DNA of 33,987 nt. It comes from Candidatus Acutalibacter pullistercoris. Lineage in GTDB: Bacteria; Bacillota; Clostridia; Oscillospirales; Acutalibacteraceae. The notes under the pieces are model-generated. The model saw only the letters and a list, made by a program, of their open reading frames with translations, searched no databases and was not told the DNA's origin. Position 1 is the first letter of the stretch; every line of letters begins with the position of its first letter. Positions 17,676 to 23,019 of this stretch are shown one piece after another. The DNA lies in contig DXDU01000012.1 of the NCBI GenBank assembly GCA_019115285.1, forward strand, positions 1-33,987, in the 5' to 3' direction. Both the position numbers and the translations under genes were made by a program.

Positions 17676-19337
17676 TCAATAGGTCCCATATCCCGTCCCG
17701 TCGCTGTAGCCGGAATCGTAGCTGTCATTGTAGCCATCCCCGGTGCCGGAATCGTAGCTGTCATTGTAGCCATCCCCGTACCCGGAGTCGTAGCTGTCGC
17801 TGTAACTGTCCCCGTACCCGGAATCGTAGCTGTCGGTGTAACCGTCCCCGTAGCCGGAGTCATAGCTGTCGGTGTAACCGTCCCCGTAGCCGGAGTCGTA
17901 GCTGTCGCTGTAGCTGTCTCCGTACCCGGAATCGTAGCTGTCGCTGTAGCCGTCCCCATAGCCGGAGCTGTCGCTACTGTCATCCCCATAGTTGGAGCTG
18001 CCAGTGTAGCTGTTCCCAGCGTGGCTGCTGGCGTTGTCCCGGGCCTCCTGCTCCGCAGTGCCCTCGGCGGGGGTGGCGCCGCTGTTGCCGAACTCCGACC
18101 AGTAGGCGGAGTCCTCCTCGTTGATAAAGCTGTCGATGCGGTGGCCCGCCCGCTCCACGTCGTAGTTCAGGTAGGCGCCGTCGTCGCTTAAGTCGAACTC
18201 ATAGTCCACATCGGGGATGGAGATGGTCTCGATGGTAAAGTCGCTGGCCAGGATGGGGGTCATGCCCACCACGTCCGTCAGGTCCAGAGAGGTCTCGCAG
18301 TAGGGCATGAGCTGGGCGATGAGGCTGGGGTACTCCCCGAAGCTCAGCTCCGTCACCCGGCTGACCAGCGCCTTAAAGACGATCTGCTGCCGCTCCACCC
18401 GCTGGTAGTCGTTGCCAATGTGCCGGATGCGCCCGTAGGCCACGGCCTGGTTGCCGTTTAGCAGCTCCACGCTGTCGCTGTACTCCGCCCCAGCCAGGTC
18501 CACCACCTGGCCGTTGGCGTCCTCCAAAAAGTCGCTGTCCAAAATTTCCGTGTAGCTGCGGGGGTTCACATAGGTGCCGTTTTCAATGGCCTCCATGGTG
18601 TCGTAGTCCCCTTCCAGCTGGGCGGCGTAGTAGTCGTTTTCCAGGTCTCTTTCCTTCTCCCGCTCCACGTCCACCTTCAGGTTCCACAGGTTCTGGTTGA
18701 TCTCCCACTTCTCCTCGGCGGTCAGGGAGATCTCCACCCCGCCGAAGGCGTCCACAATGGCGGCGGTGTCAGTGAAGTCGATGGTCACATAGTCCATGAT
18801 GTTCAGGCCGAAGTTCCGGTTCAAGGTGCGGATAGCCAGCTCGTAGCCGCCCACGCTGTACGCGGCGTTGATCTTATCCATGTAGTCCACGTGCTCGCCA
18901 GAGCTGGTCTCCCCCTCGATGGAGACGTAGGAGTCCCGGAGGATGGAGGTGAGCTTCAGCTTCTTGTGCTTGTTGTCCACGGTGAGCACCATGATCACGT
19001 CGGAGTTGCTGCTGTCTCCCTCGGTGCCGTCGCTGCGGGAGTCCAGGCCGAACAGGGCGATGTTCTTGATGCTGTCGTCCATCTCCACGCTGGGGTCGAT
19101 GCCCAGGGCCGTGGGGTCTTTGGTGATGTTAGTGGTAGTCAGGTCGCCGATGAGGTGGGTGGCCACGTACATAGAGCCGCCCCCCACCAGGATGAGCAGC
19201 CCGCTGAGCACCCCGGCGAAGATCTTGGCGGCCAGCCTTGCCCGGCTGCCCCGGCGGTTCTTTTTGTATTCTTTGGTAGAGGAGTAGCTGGAGAGGTCCT
19301 CGAACTTCTGCTTCTGTTTGCTGTGTCTGGATGCCAT
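17676..19337 (-). CDS. LCP (LytR-CpsA-Psr) family cell-wall transferase, paralogue B with tandem-repeat tail
   Basis: A 553-residue membrane protein. A short basic cytoplasmic N-terminus, a membrane helix (~36-58) and an extracellular LCP domain come first. Its features are LFGLDSRSDGTEGDSSNSDV, SILRDSYVSI, YELAIRTLNRNFGLNI and GNQAVAYGRIRHIGNDYQRVERQQ. Residues ~430 onward are Ser/Gly/Asp/Tyr-rich and end in seven 12-residue repeats of type GYGDGYSDSYDS, probably a flexible surface tail. The ATG at 19337 is preceded by AAGGAGG at 6 bases. The longer frame from 19400 overlaps gtrA and lacks a site. Role: attachment of a wall glycopolymer, perhaps overlapping with paralogue A. Confidence 0.92.
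   Translation of the reverse strand: MASRHSKQKQKFEDLSSYSSTKEYKKNRRGSRARLAAKIFAGVLSGLLILVGGGSMYVATHLIGDLTTTNITKDPTALGIDPSVEMDDSIKNIALFGLDSRSDGTEGDSSNSDVIMVLTVDNKHKKLKLTSILRDSYVSIEGETSSGEHVDYMDKINAAYSVGGYELAIRTLNRNFGLNIMDYVTIDFTDTAAIVDAFGGVEISLTAEEKWEINQNLWNLKVDVEREKERDLENDYYAAQLEGDYDTMEAIENGTYVNPRSYTEILDSDFLEDANGQVVDLAGAEYSDSVELLNGNQAVAYGRIRHIGNDYQRVERQQIVFKALVSRVTELSFGEYPSLIAQLMPYCETSLDLTDVVGMTPILASDFTIETISIPDVDYEFDLSDDGAYLNYDVERAGHRIDSFINEEDSAYWSEFGNSGATPAEGTAEQEARDNASSHAGNSYTGSSNYGDDSSDSSGYGDGYSDSYDSGYGDSYSDSYDSGYGDGYTDSYDSGYGDGYTDSYDSGYGDSYSDSYDSGYGDGYNDSYDSGTGDGYNDSYDSGYSDGTGYGTY
17712..17963 (-). repeat. Seven 36-bp tandem repeats coding the LCP-B tail
   Basis: Seven in-frame units encode GYGD-[GS]-Y-[STN]-DSYDS variants, with one GTGD variant. 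A degenerate partial unit follows at the stop codon. The units are near identical in DNA, so copy number may vary between strains by slippage or recombination. Confidence 0.9.
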
Positions 19338-19371
19338 AGCGGTCCTCCTTTGGGGAATCGGTGATAGGCGG

Positions 19372-19785
19372 TCAGCTCCGGCGGGAGGGCCGGAACACAA
19401 AAAGCTTGCTGAACACGTAGTTGGCGATGATCACCAGGATGTTGGCGAAAAGCTTCATCCAGGTGTCGGGGATGTGGAGCAGGTCCACGCCCACGTACAT
19501 ACACAGAAGGTCCAGGAGGAACGAGACCCCTCTGGCCCCGAAAAACCGGACCATCTCCAGGAAGATCTCCCCGGCGCCCCTGGCCTTGCTCTCGAAGACC
19601 CAGGTGCGGTTGGTGACGTAGGCGAAAAGGATGGCCGCCACCTGAGAAAGGGCCGTGGCCCACAGATAGGGCACTCCCAGGGGCTTGGCCAGCACCCAGT
19701 ACAGGCCCCAGTTCACCAGGGTGGTAAGGCCCCCGAACAACACGTAGAGGATGAGCTCCCGGTACTTTGCTAGCAGCCCGCGCAG
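19372..19785 (-). CDS. GtrA family membrane protein, likely non-ATG (CTG) start
   Basis: A ~137-residue four-helix membrane protein of the GtrA/flippase-associated family. These help move lipid-linked sugars across the membrane for glycosylation of wall polymers. Family features are YVLFGGLTTLVNWGLYW (helix 1), FAYVTNRTWVF after helix 2, FFGARGVSFLLDLLCMY (helix 3), and WMKLFANILVIIANYVFSKLFVF (helix 4, given here only as its ends WMKLFAN and NYVFSKLFVF). The start is a problem: the promoter at 19822-19850 rules out the in-frame GTG at 19911. No ATG, GTG or TTG fits AAGGAGG (19794-19800), but CTG at 19785 is 8 bases from it and gives the normal GtrA length. It is the first gene of the LCP operon. 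Confidence 0.85.
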   Translation of the reverse strand: MRGLLAKYRELILYVLFGGLTTLVNWGLYWVLAKPLGVPYLWATALSQVAAILFAYVTNRTWVFESKARGAGEIFLEMVRFFGARGVSFLLDLLCMYVGVDLLHIPDTWMKLFANILVIIANYVFSKLFVFRPSRRS

Positions 19786-19793
19786 GGGGACCG

Positions 19794-19801
19794 CCTCCTT
19801 T
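19794..19801 (-). promoter_or_regulatory. Ribosome binding site that sets the gtrA start
   Basis: Minus-strand AAAGGAGG, 8 bases before CTG (19785-19783). The codon between them in frame is GTC, which is not a usual start codon. Confidence 0.7.
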
Positions 19802-19821
19802 CTTCCCGGCTTATCTGGTTT

Positions 19822-19850
19822 AGTATACCGTAAATCCAAGAAAAATTCAA
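19822..19850 (-). promoter_or_regulatory. Sigma-A promoter of the gtrA-LCP operon
   Basis: Minus-strand -35 TTGAAT (19845-19850), 17-base spacer, -10 TATACT (19822-19827). The transcript would begin near 19815. Confidence 0.82.
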
Positions 19851-19960
19851 GCAAAAAGGAAAAAACCCTGGGGACTGCCGGGATTTCCCTCCCGTCCTCC
19901 AGGGGCGCCACATGACATAACTTTTTCGAACCCCCCGCCCCTTTTGGGAGCAGGGCAAGG

Positions 19961-19996
19961 AAAAAGGGCTTCCAAGCTACCCTGGAAGCCCTCTTA
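19961..19996 (-). terminator. Terminator of the large noncoding transcript
   Basis: Perfect 10-bp stem AGGGCTTCCA (19965-19974) / TGGAAGCCCT (19983-19992), 8-base loop. On the minus strand a T-run follows at once. The plus strand has only a broken T-run and no gene to terminate. Confidence 0.85.
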
Positions 19997-20894
19997 TTTT
20001 TTACTTGTTTGCCGACTAGTGGACGGAACGAATGGAGGTTTACACTGCGCTGGAAATGGACCGTTACAATGTTCTGCTCTTCTTCTTTGTCCAGGAATCA
20101 GCTGGCCGTTTCCAAAGGATCTGGAAACTTTTCTGGCCTGGTTCTGCAACCATTGTACCCTTTCGCATCCCTGGAAAACGTTCTGTGCTTTTTTCAGAAA
20201 GACGTTTCCTTTTCGCTGGAACGTTCAGGTCTACACCTGCGCTTTCTTTTCGCCAGCCGTTTTCTTTCGGGCCCTGCGTTTGGGGTCATCATTTATTTCA
20301 AATGACTAGTACATTGGCTTTAGTTCCTTTTCTGGCACATATTCTTCTGTTTTCTTCAGCCGTATTACTTTATGTTGTCCACGTCTTGTGGCTTACGCTT
20401 TACCAAGCTTTAGAAAGGAACGGCGCTCAAACAGCTCTGTGCCTTTTTTGGTTCCCTTTGAACTGCGTTTCGTTCAGAACTGGGACCCCTTTCTTTAAGA
20501 TTTCTCTTAAATGGATTTTCTCTTTATTTCTCTGCGGATGTGAGTCCGCAGATCATAAAGTGCTGAGGTTCTGATTTGTCCACTGGACTCACCCGCCTTT
20601 CTGATCTAATTTTTTTGTTTTCGCAGCCTCGCAATTTCTTCTCGATCCAGTTTCTCTGGATCTTTTTCTGGTCCGCCTTTCTTCCCACTTCACCGACTAT
20701 TTTCGGTTACTTTTCTTGGAAGGGGTTTGCCAGTTTTTACTTTTCACACACTCCCCACCGTTTTCTCCAGGTATTTTTCCTTGCTCCTGTTCTCTTTTCT
20801 CGTTGGAGAACAAGTATGGATTTTTCTGGATACTTCCGGCTTTGCGAAGCCGCCTTGAAGATGTTCGAGATCTTTTGGTCTTCTCTTATCTTCT
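19961..20894 (-). ncRNA. Large (~930 nt) structured noncoding RNA, class unknown
   Basis: A minus-strand unit runs from a consensus promoter (20901-20929) to an intrinsic terminator (19961-19996). No ORF with a ribosome site lies within it. The strand is purine-rich and visibly richer in A+T than neighbouring genes. Perfect hairpins are spread along it: CGGCTT/AAGCCG (20837-20852), GTTCTC/GAGAAC (20789-20811), ACCGA/TCGGT (20692-20707), GATCCAG/CTGGATC (20644-20662), TCTGCGGA/TCCGCAGA (20531-20552), CAGGT/ACCTG (20226-20239) and GTTTCCA/TGGAAAC (20108-20128). I see no RNase P, tmRNA, SRP, rRNA or group II intron domain V signature. Size and style recall the large bacterial RNAs (OLE, GOLLD, ROOL), but membership is not claimed. 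Confidence 0.72.
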
Positions 20895-20900
20895 GGCACT

Positions 20901-20929
20901 ATTATAACGGAAACGAGCGCGGTTGTCAA
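20901..20929 (-). promoter_or_regulatory. Perfect consensus promoter of the large noncoding RNA
   Basis: Minus-strand TTGACA (20924-20929), exactly 17 bases, TATAAT (20901-20906): both hexamers match 6/6. Transcription should start near 20894. Confidence 0.92.
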
Positions 20930-20939
20930 TAGGTATTTT

Positions 20940-20965
20940 GCACTTTTTTAAAATTTTTTAGAGAT
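20940..20965 (-). promoter_or_regulatory. A/T-rich UP-like element upstream of the noncoding RNA promoter
   Basis: On the minus strand the sequence before the -35 is an A-tract, T-tract, A-tract run (TAAAAAATTTTAAAAAAG). It lies about 10-35 bases beyond the -35 and resembles UP elements bound by the RNA polymerase alpha C-terminal domain. Confidence 0.6.
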
Positions 20966-21001
20966 TTTTTCCAAGCCGGCCCCCTTTCCCCTCTTTCCCC
21001 G

Positions 21002-21020
21002 AAAATTCCTCTGGAATTTT
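21002..21020. repeat. Perfect inverted repeat between divergent promoters
   Basis: AAAATTCC (21002-21009), TCT, GGAATTTT (21013-21020). It lies between the noncoding RNA promoter and the DUF1292 promoter. It could be an operator or a small hairpin; no T-run follows. Confidence 0.55.
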
Positions 21021-21041
21021 ACAAAGGCCATTTTCACACTA

Positions 21042-21070
21042 TTGACTTCCCCCCCGCTTTTGGGTACAAT
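21042..21070 (+). promoter_or_regulatory. Sigma-A promoter of the DUF1292 gene
   Basis: -35 TTGACT (21042-21047), 17-base spacer, -10 TACAAT (21065-21070). Confidence 0.83.
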
Positions 21071-21116
21071 ACAGGTAGAAGAAGCGCCAACGCGCTCTGG
21101 AAAGGAGCTTCCGCTG

Positions 21117-21416
21117 ATGGATAATCAATACGAGGCCGATCTGATCACCCTCATCGACGACGACGGCCAGGAGCACGAGTTCGAGATCATCGACGAGCTG
21201 GACACCGACGACGGCCACTACATGGCTCTTGTCCCCACCCAGCAGGACCCGGAGGAGATCTCCTCCGAAGCCGAGACCTACTACATCTTCGAGGTGGTAG
21301 AGGAAGACGGCGAGGAGCAGCTGCAGGAAGTGGAGGACGACGAACTGCTGGATAAGCTGGCGGAGATTTTCGAGAGCCGCTTTAACGAGGCCTACTTCGA
21401 CGAGCCGGAGGAATAA
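21117..21416 (+). CDS. DUF1292 domain protein (YrzB-like)
   Basis: A 99-residue, very acidic cytoplasmic protein. It matches DUF1292 (YrzB family) by the start ADLITLIDDDGQEHEFEIID, the ALVP strand, the YYIFEVVEEDGEE stretch and the end LDKLAEIFESRFNEAYFD. The function is unknown. In many Firmicutes it sits beside ireB and ruvX; here ruvX is ~5 kb away in another operon, so that link is broken. AAAGGAG (21101-21107) stands 9 bases before the ATG. No terminator follows directly; the transcript may run into the structured RNA downstream. Confidence 0.9.
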   Translation: MDNQYEADLITLIDDDGQEHEFEIIDELDTDDGHYMALVPTQQDPEEISSEAETYYIFEVVEEDGEEQLQEVEDDELLDKLAEIFESRFNEAYFDEPEE

Positions 21417-21449
21417 TCCTCCCCCCACAAGCGTACCATTTTGATAGAC

Positions 21450-21685
21450 CCGACGGCCCGGCCCGCGCCGGACCTGCGGCCTGCCTGATTCGCGGACTGC
21501 GCACATATAACCCTACACTCGATTGAAAGGGAGCCCTGTCTCCGCCTGGGGATCGCAGACCTCCCGGCACGGCTTTGACCGGTTGCTGGAGGAAGGGAGC
21601 GTGAAGCAGGAGGGGGGGCACCCACCTGCTTATTGGTAGCAGGTTATTGAGTTGCGCGATACGGTCGGGCGGGCCGCTTTTTATG
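21450..21685 (+). ncRNA. Structured RNA candidate with 6S-like layout
   Basis: The ends pair: CGGCCCG (21454-21460) with CGGGCCG (21670-21676), extended by CCCG / CGGG across a bulged G, and T5 follows. Inside, TCGCG (21490-21494) can pair with CGCGA (21655-21659). An apical rod is formed by GGGAG (21529-21533) with CTCCC (21561-21565), CTG with CAG, and TCTCC with GGGGA around GCCT. On the 3' side there is a perfect 7-bp hairpin ACCTGCT / AGCAGGT (21624-21644). This order (closing stem, long rod, 3'-side hairpin beside a central open region) is that of 6S RNA, the RNA polymerase regulator. Primary-sequence proof is lacking and the promoter is unclear. Confidence 0.5.
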
Positions 21686-21696
21686 CCCATTTGCAG

Positions 21697-21723
21697 GGGC
21701 GGACGGAGGTGTCCGCCCTTTTT
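21697..21723 (+). terminator. Terminator after the 6S-like RNA
   Basis: Perfect 8-bp stem GGGCGGAC / GTCCGCCC around GGAGGT, followed by a T-run. Confidence 0.9.
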
Positions 21724-21867
21724 CTATGTGCTAAGGACAAAAAATACTTAAAATACTCTTGACTTTTGGTCACTCATAGGGTTGAATTATAGTAAGGGAC
21801 ATGCGGCCTTTCTCACCCCTGGCCGCGGGACGACCTGGAAAAATCTGAAAAATGGGAGGAATCACCT
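21724..21867 (+). promoter_or_regulatory. Promoter region and leader of the Gfo/Idh/MocA gene
   Basis: -10 TATAGT (21788-21793) has only a weak -35 at 16-17 bases (TTGGTC or TTTGGT near 21765-21771). A better TTGACT lies too far upstream, so an activator may be needed. A perfect hairpin GCGGCC (21803-21808) / GGCCGC (21821-21826) lies in the leader. Confidence 0.5.
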
Positions 21868-22992
21868 ATGATCGACGGCAAGGTAGCTGTTGCCATCGTC
21901 GGCTGCGGCGGCATGGGCGGCGGCCACGCGGTTGCCATCTCCACCGGCAGCGGCCAGGCCCTTTGGATGACCGACGGCTCGAAAGGCCGGGAACTGCTTC
22001 CCGGGGATACGGACCTGAAAGAAAAGATGGTGCTTGCCGGCACCTACGACATCAAGGAAGAACGCCAGGAGTGGGCCCGGAAGCAGGGCTTCTTCACCTA
22101 CGGCAGCTTCGAGGAGATCCTGTCTGACGACCGGGTGGACGTGGTCCTGGTGGCCACTCCCAACGACAGCCACAAGGAGCTCTCCATCCAGGCCATGCGG
22201 GCCGGCAAAAACGTGCTGTGCGAGAAGCCTGTGATGATGAACAGCAAAGACCTGGAGGACGTGCTGGCCGTGGCCAAGGAGACCGGCAAGGTCTTCTACC
22301 CCCGGCAGAACCGCCGCTGGGACAAGGACTACCTGACCATGAAGAAGCTCTACGACGAGAAGACCCTGGGCAACGTGTTCCACATCGAGAGCCGGTACCA
22401 CGGCTCCCGGGGCATTCCCGGCGACTGGCGGGGCATGAAGGAAAAGGGCGGCGGCATGATGTTCGACTGGGGCGTGCACCTGCTGGACCGGCTGGTGCAG
22501 ATGGTCCCGGAGAAGATCAAGAAAGTCTACGCCAAGATGACCCACGTGACCAACGACGAGGTGGACGACGGCTTCATCATGAACATGGTCTTCGAGAGCG
22601 GCCTGACCGCCACGGTGGAAGTGGGCACCTGCAACTTCATCACCCTGCCCCTGTGGTACCTGTGCGGCGACCAGGGCACCGCGGAGATCAAGGATTTCCG
22701 GGACCCCGGCCACATGGTGGTGCTGCGCAGCTGGGAAGACAAGGACGCCACCCCCATCCTCATGGGCGAGGGCCTTTCCAAGACCATGGCCCCCCGGAAC
22801 GCCGATTCCGTGGACGACCTTCCCCTGCCTGACATCCAGTACGACCGCAACCAGCTGTACTCCAACGTGTGCGACGTGGTGCTGGGCAAGGCCGAGCAGA
22901 TCGTGAAGAACGAGGAGGCCCTGCGGGTGCTGCGGCTGATGGAAGCCGCCCTGGAATCCGACGAGAAGGGCATCGCGGTGGACTTCGAGTAA
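21868..22992 (+). CDS. Gfo/Idh/MocA family NAD(P)-dependent oxidoreductase
   Basis: A 374-residue cytoplasmic dehydrogenase of the inositol/glucose-fructose oxidoreductase family. The N-terminal Rossmann fold has the dinucleotide loop VGCGGMGGGH (11-20). The family motif EKP (119-121) holds the catalytic-region Lys. Asp200 and His204 in FDWGVHLLD fit the substrate/active-site D-x-x-x-H pattern. The C-terminal part is the alpha/beta substrate domain. Substrates are sugars, inositols or derivatives and cannot be named here. GGGAGGAA stands before the ATG. It is monocistronic, ending at a shared bidirectional terminator with mgtE. Confidence 0.9.
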   Translation: MIDGKVAVAIVGCGGMGGGHAVAISTGSGQALWMTDGSKGRELLPGDTDLKEKMVLAGTYDIKEERQEWARKQGFFTYGSFEEILSDDRVDVVLVATPNDSHKELSIQAMRAGKNVLCEKPVMMNSKDLEDVLAVAKETGKVFYPRQNRRWDKDYLTMKKLYDEKTLGNVFHIESRYHGSRGIPGDWRGMKEKGGGMMFDWGVHLLDRLVQMVPEKIKKVYAKMTHVTNDEVDDGFIMNMVFESGLTATVEVGTCNFITLPLWYLCGDQGTAEIKDFRDPGHMVVLRSWEDKDATPILMGEGLSKTMAPRNADSVDDLPLPDIQYDRNQLYSNVCDVVLGKAEQIVKNEEALRVLRLMEAALESDEKGIAVDFE

Positions 22993-23019
22993 GCTCCCCA
23001 CCCCCATCCCAATCACGTA

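Follow-up and report, generated by a model that had tools for sequence, protein, structure and literature searches.

A candidate class of bacterial RNA built around very strong translation initiation sites

The window, by which we mean the whole stretch of 33,987 nucleotides that was analysed, carries on its minus strand a predicted free-standing RNA gene. Comparison with relatives, which like all our evidence on the gene is computational, shows that what is conserved most widely is one or more putative, very strong initiation sites, and that the reading frame, as judged from these sequences, is protected and the peptide is not. We read the RNA as a new class of a bacterial order, which would act by recruiting ribosomes rather than through a peptide. 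The predicted transcription unit and its neighbours are as follows:

20901 to 20929, minus strand: promoter TTGACA-17-TATAAT, recognized by its hexamers and by the same divergent position in relatives.
19960 to 20894, minus strand: RNA gene, from a predicted start at ~20894 to a predicted end past the T run at ~19960.
19960 to 19992, minus strand: intrinsic terminator, a stem followed by T's.
20831 to 20839, minus strand: CCGGAAGTA, conserved near the 5' end in the alignment of transcripts.
21117 to 21413, plus strand: DUF1292 gene (Pfam).
19372 to 19785 (as tested), minus strand: gtrA (Pfam).
21475 to 21679, plus strand: 6S RNA gene (Rfam RF00013, 65.4 bits).

A minus-strand transcription unit from ~20894 to ~19960 is well supported by its predicted signals, and we infer that the RNA gene itself is transcribed. 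The promoter, a perfect sigma-70-type signal preceded by an A/T-rich stretch, has TTGACA at 20929-20924 and TATAAT at 20906-20901 with a spacer of 17 nt. As claimed in a first-pass annotation of this DNA, it matches at all 12 of 12 positions, and it is the only such match within 18000-23000, where five sites were found and 1.6 were expected from shuffles. The terminator that the same annotation placed ~930 bases downstream was also recovered (stem 19992-19965 and T run), giving ~935 nt of RNA between the predicted ends. GC content was 42.5-48.5% in the four 200-base segments wholly inside the RNA and 50.5% in the segment spanning its 3' end, and most flanking segments had 55-65.5% (the exceptions being 20900-21099 and 21700-21899), consistent with the earlier remark that the stretch is richer in A+T than its surroundings. 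The minus strand of the gene shows a strong A-over-T skew, the RNA being 38% A and 25% G. The predicted fold (-281.4 kcal/mol) has a z of -6.6, none of 20 shuffles being equally good, and of -7.1 when repeated with 12 shuffles; z ranged from -1.7 to -7.5 across those 17 of the 22 transcripts described below that are shorter than 1000 nt. Several hairpins named in the first-pass annotation recurred in our hairpin listing of the RNA stretch. Close to the 5' end, CGGAAGTA is present in 20 of 22 transcripts, and a candidate partner for CCGGAAGTA is the CGG within GAAAACGG at 20765-20758, a pairing judged by eye only.

No Rfam family reached its gathering score within the RNA; the large-RNA families, OLE, GOLLD and ROOL included, had been proposed as the covariance-model check and all stayed below it. 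At E<=10, a 1.3-kb stretch gave seven matches, all far below gathering and none credible in the sense direction, the best, with an E of 0.013, being that of ctRNA_p42d to the terminator hairpin. When 20 relative loci were scanned at gathering only, 14 matches were obtained, all to 6S RNA, and no resemblance to OLE, GOLLD or ROOL was seen in the window or in these loci. An RNA of such description was not found in open-licence PMC text. 6S RNA was also the sole family at gathering in the window, just downstream of DUF1292, and was matched in 14 of the 20 relative loci; its proximity to the RNA gene is suggestive only. Elsewhere on the minus strand, 17676-19400 encodes a LytR-CpsA-Psr protein whose C-terminal part carries a long repeat of the type SDSYDSGYGDGY.

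By DNA similarity, 12 of the 29 genus genomes had homologues, in the form of conserved patches, and none of 31 other genomes did. This search was too insensitive, and the neighbouring DUF1292 gene, present in 26 of the 29 genus genomes, was used instead. We collected 26 named DUF1292 loci (for example from Acutalibacter and Neglectibacter), 23 of them from the genus. A TTGACA-17-TATAAT/TATACT promoter directed away from DUF1292 was found in 22 of the 26, with both hexamers identical in 19, and 20 of the 23 genus loci allowed a transcript to be delimited. Together with the window and L065, a locus from another genus with the same sequence as L073 that was kept in the set, these make 22 promoter-to-terminator transcripts of 433-1244 nt, for each of which one terminator candidate was chosen from several listed. 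No transcript was drawn for L056, which reaches a contig end, or for L067 and L068, where DUF1292 is distant and the RNA was not found. Loci L054 and L063 have no recognizable RNA between gtrA and DUF1292, similarity to gtrA starting ~240 and ~170 nt, respectively, from the DUF1292 start; these two are likely losses of the RNA. The aligned transcripts show conserved blocks within a variable background. The elements discussed below lie in the window at:

20585 to 20602, minus strand: extended Shine-Dalgarno AGAAAGGCGGGTGAGTCC, able to base-pair with the 16S tail GGATCACCTCCTTTCT if one base bulges out in GTGA-G-TCC.
20524 to 20583, minus strand: 19-codon frame with GTG start and TAA stop, translating to VDKSEPQHFMICGLTSAEK.
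20531 to 20592, minus strand: putative switch-like element, formed by possible pairing of GTGAGTCC at 20592-20585 with GGACTCAC at 20547-20540.
20334 to 20443, minus strand: structured domain of the genus, supported by compensatory changes, with an outer helix of GGCAC (20443-20439) and GTGCC (20338-20334).
20306 to 20314, minus strand: two-codon frame ATG TAC TAG (Met-Tyr-stop) with a weak ribosome site, ranking 1284th of 2713.

The best-conserved block of the RNA is gaaaggcgggtgagtcc-N-NTG, a ribosome site, which opens a frame of 16-24 codons in all 22 transcripts (21 from the genus, one from another genus). In the window, the GTG of the 19-codon frame begins 1 nt past agaaaggcgggtgagtcc, and the pairing energy of the site with the 16S tail ranks 11th among 2713 NTG sites. 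The tail itself, CTGGATCACCTCCTTTCT, was recovered in seven of 29 genus genomes and was not found in the window's own draft. The first-pass annotation had described the stretch as lacking an ORF with a ribosome site, which this frame contradicts; its term noncoding RNA holds as far as the RNA gene goes, and fails for a gene whose core is a ribosome-binding site with a protected short frame. Sites picked by the GTGAGTCC motif had median pairing energies with the 16S tail of -18.0 kcal/mol for long frames and -12.6 kcal/mol for short ones, all ATGs of the window giving -6.5 kcal/mol.

The protection is specific to the frame. Among 33 homologues (21 from the genus and 12 from other genera) none has a stop in codons 1-15 in frame, whereas the two shifted frames have one in 14 and 20 of the 33, respectively, and the start varies as NTG (ATG in 30, GTG in 2, TTG in 1) and the stop as TAA (18), TGA (10) or TAG (5). 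The long frame measures about 15-34 codons across relatives. We saw no sign of purifying selection on its amino acids; by crude counts on short sequences, pS was 0.141 and pN 0.156 over 26 close pairs (pN/pS ~1.1), and 0.133 and 0.183, respectively, in codons 2-8, which lie outside the hairpin. Thus, of what marks a dual-function RNA, the conserved open frame with a ribosome site was found, and conservation of amino acids was not, although the residues M-x-x-x-E-x-Q recur in the longer frame.

The GGACTCAC segment that can pair with the ribosome site is also part of the hairpin 20552-20531, so that the predicted pairings alternate. GG[AG][CT]T[CT], the complement of GAGTCC, lies inside 43 of 61 long frames, where letter shuffles gave an expectation of 6.6. 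In 33 sequences the GAGTCC helix had 96.0% of cells paired and eight double changes versus 1.6 in shuffles, in an alignment fitted to a model that already contained this helix; its covariation lacked significance on a 20-sequence alignment, where 114 of 500 shuffles scored as high. In the clade of L053, L059, L060 and L064, the GGACTCAC segment is read in a phase different from that of the window frame, as if RNA pairing there outranked the peptide.

Compensatory changes beyond those in shuffles, the mark of a structured RNA, were found in 19 genus sequences, in the 3' domain. A count over the four helices of the domain in 19 genus transcripts out of 21 (L057, L062 and L065 do not enter structure alignments A1 and A3) gave 93.0% of cells paired, versus 37-41% when the partner was slid. 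Thirty-three cells were changed on both sides, a number that none of 500 shuffles attained (9.2±2.4); the sequences are related, and the structure was in part derived from this alignment. One of the helices is invariant, and the third pairs in 78.6% of cells only. The search for covariation in homologues that had been proposed with the first-pass annotation was thus positive for this domain, and, with a fold z of about -7 and the homologues, it bears out the suggestion of a structured, conserved and independent RNA gene absent from Rfam. A model of the domain, R2, gave no match in 40 loci outside the genus (two of them duplicates); this is weak evidence, because one R2 helix was mis-set by a column.

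Initiation signals are not confined to the long frame. At the position of the two-codon frame of the window, 13 of 18 genus transcripts have a stop within three codons and five run longer; the test covered 18 of 21 transcripts, L047 and L048 having no site and L062 being left out. The L062 transcript has, at 442-684, a repeated gaggattcagccaATG followed by AAC CAG TAA, AAC TAG and CAC AAC TAA; in these repeats, as we read them, the sequence is diverged and the stop kept. Other relatives repeat the signal up to six times per RNA, mostly before frames of two to three codons. Downstream copies of GTGA[GTA][TC]CC-N-ATG have an in-frame stop within three codons in 20 of 21 cases; either shifted frame has one in 1 of the 21, and the antisense strand has none. 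These copies are not independent, because nine come from one genus and three from another, and the background of 5 of 27, taken over all long loci, itself contains copies from these RNAs.

The pattern recurs in whole genomes. Following GTGAGTCC-N-ATG, the stop was in frame in 40 cases and out of frame in 14 across 290 genomes of the order, and in frame in 48 and out of frame in 14, among the matches listed, across 300 genomes of the family, the two samples overlapping. With A, T or C replacing the middle G of GTGA-G-TCC in GTGAGTCC, there was no in-frame excess (34:37 and 45:43). We also sampled by neighbour, taking 85 DUF1292 loci, one per genus, and allowing one mismatch in the site; two partial matches of G130 among the 87 DUF1292 matches were omitted, and contig ends shortened eight of the 85 loci to <750 nt. 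Of these loci, 23 carry 38 sites in the sense direction and none in antisense. Nineteen of the 38 open frames of two to three codons, the shifted frames having stops within one to three codons in 6 and 9 of 38. The remaining 62 loci have no site at the threshold used, and the window is counted among them because its frame starts with GTG. The peak at two to three codons over all loci is biased, many loci having been fetched by that pattern; the downstream copies, the whole-genome counts and the neighbour-based sample are the fairer comparisons. Start, one or two sense codons and stop thus occur beyond chance in the relatives, as in minigenes.

Individual loci illustrate the arrays. L096 has a 16-codon frame followed by five frames of 3-4 codons, L188 a 21-codon frame followed by three short ones, L201 four short frames (MK, MR, MA and MYK), and L187, L189 and L190 three each. 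At L189 and L193 start-X-stop units stand where no DUF1292 was seen. L193 lies beside a ParA-like gene and L196 upstream of an MreB-like gene (both named by eye), and the unit of L200 is upstream of a 525-codon ORF; some of these three may be separate RNAs and some gene leaders. L191 (contig C25 of genome G204) has two start-stop frames, MYN and MYS, separated by ~880 nt, and G204 seems to hold two loci, this one and the DUF1292-linked RNA L081 on contig C1.

We followed the spread of the RNA with covariance models, in an order that we take to be Oscillospirales, the order and family names being those we associate with the named loci. The core model R1 had matches in 17 genomes out of 300 from the family, of which 13 lie outside the genus, and among these 13 loci DUF1292 lay within the fetched stretch in 10 and the frame was present in 12. 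The R1 match at L080 is false, being the ribosome site of a 317-codon ORF. A wider model, R3, matched in 43 genomes among the 300 of the family (inspection left out 13 of the 43 matches) and in 21 of 295 genomes drawn from the order, 17 of them outside the family; among the 22 matches of the order draw, G404 and a second place in G360 were viewed for neighbours only. A frame of 15-32 codons, a length not improbable alone, is open in 32 of 33 inspected loci (three re-cut from earlier ones). Doubtful or rejected matches are L102, with a 9-codon frame, and L112, L097 and L103, where no promoter and no DUF1292 were seen. In a class-wide draw R3 matched 2 of 291 genomes, the window's own and one of the same order; because of this result the RNA looks like an order-level feature, and R3 does not appear merely to detect ribosome sites. 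Homologues lie divergently beside DUF1292 in the genus and also in other genera and other families of the order. All seven inspected loci of family f26 adjoin DUF1292, whereas in family f13 it is near none of seven, and three of the six f13 loci with wider flanks adjoin an apparent iron-containing alcohol dehydrogenase (by eye). This other context indicates that the RNA is independent of its DUF1292 neighbour.

If the sites function as their sequence suggests, 30S subunits would dock on them (extended Shine-Dalgarno and GAGTCC-N-AUG), and the docked ribosomes would initiate, stop almost immediately and rebind. The RNA would hold ribosomes without making useful protein and perhaps free fMet-X-tRNA. 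The GAGTCC:GGACTC pairing would close the first site until it is opened by a ribosome, and would set the amount of docking. In trans, the outcome would be titration of ribosomes under particular conditions. Because the sites are repeated and the promoter matches the consensus, we tentatively prefer such capture in trans over a purely cis effect, as a reading that falls somewhat short of probable. Several points run counter to it, among them the 62 DUF1292 loci with no site at the threshold used, the two genus loci that seem to lack the RNA, and the non-significant covariation of the GAGTCC helix in 20 sequences. Titration also leaves the function of the structured 3' domain of the genus unexplained; the two-codon site in the window's genus appears weak and is absent in L047 and L048; and the recurrent M-x-x-x-E-x-Q leaves room for a role of the peptide. 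That the RNA is a translational counterpart of 6S RNA, in which an abundant transcript would mimic serial mRNA starts, soak up 30S subunits or ribosomes and throttle protein synthesis in these gut bacteria, the arrays being binding sites, seems to us rather unlikely.

The main rival to capture in trans is cis protection or a sensing switch. Here parked ribosomes would shield the RNA from nucleases or fix its fold, and the structured RNA would act in trans, by pairing or through a protein, reporting translation capacity. Mini-ORF ribosome sites can stabilize or regulate mRNAs in cis (PMC8708949), the 3' domain of the genus is structured with covariation, and an alternative pairing is conserved at the first site; yet the initiation sites persist across the order while the 3' domain was unseen in the 40 loci searched with R2 and its mis-set helix, and multi-site arrays exceed the need of one protective plug. 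We consider this rival doubtful. A dual-function RNA of the RNAIII kind, whose active product would be the peptide of 15-34 residues, is in our view improbable: the strong site and open frame in every one of the 22 transcripts and in 12 of the 13 R1 loci outside the genus agree with it, as does the recurrence of M-x-x-x-E-x-Q, but the pN/pS of ~1.1 extends outside the hairpin, one clade reads the second half in another phase (GLxxR versus ADSxSAD), and frames of two to three codons are too short to encode a peptide product of the usual kind.

The conserved synteny with DUF1292 would fit a leader or regulator of that gene or of gtrA. We rejected this very improbable reading on direction, terminator and context, since transcription runs away from DUF1292, the terminator precedes gtrA, and the f13 elements sit at other loci; besides, the distance to gtrA varies and gtrA was not found within 5 kb at 9 of 26 loci (one a 475-base stretch). 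A purely noncoding structured RNA with coincidental starts and stops would suit the covariation and fold energy but is scarcely credible, because the presence and absence of stops is frame-specific and the start varies as NTG.

If ribosome capture in trans is correct, this would be an RNA class whose function is being translated, irrespective of what is translated, and bacteria would gain a ribosome-side equivalent of 6S control. It would offer a natural system for minigene translation and peptidyl-tRNA release, and would account for a transcription unit of 0.4-1.2 kb that has a consensus promoter and that gene callers would leave blank. Candidates for large noncoding RNAs should then be screened for start-stop frames.

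Minigenes and dual-function RNAs are already known, phage lambda bar being a further bacterial minigene, and we know of no free-standing RNA built around serial start-stop frames. On mini-ORF sites, PMC8708949 cites Lodato 2012 for protection from RNase E. As in the present RNAs, minigenes have AUG, one or two sense codons and a stop behind a ribosome site. According to PMC8708949, axe-txe mg2 and the LEE1 and LEE4 leaders contain two-codon mini-ORFs, a strong Shine-Dalgarno promotes re-initiation on minigenes, toxicity is highest for two-codon frames, and mini-ORF ribosome sites may give an RNA protection in cis. The minigenes described in that paper lie within protein-coding operons and act in cis, whereas here an RNA gene without a protein carries them, several in a row in some relatives. 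The ribosome-binding reading fits this known biology of re-initiation, toxicity and cis protection. RNAIII, SR1 and SgrS, which are dual-function RNAs, likewise combine an RNA gene with an internal small ORF; unlike in them, the peptide here gave no evidence of purifying selection, and the initiation sites are repeated. Small RNAs coding for peptides are the subject of PMC5521070, and OLE, GOLLD and ROOL appear as large RNAs in PMC12286853. The last three are alike in size and structure, but here there is no Rfam match to them and the core is a translation start. tmRNA, an RNA with a short internal frame, is alike in that respect, and the Rfam scan of the window gave no match to it. 6S RNA captures RNA polymerase by mimicking its substrate; it too is an RNA gene, on the far side of DUF1292 and unlike the present one in sequence, for which the mimicked substrate would be the translation start.
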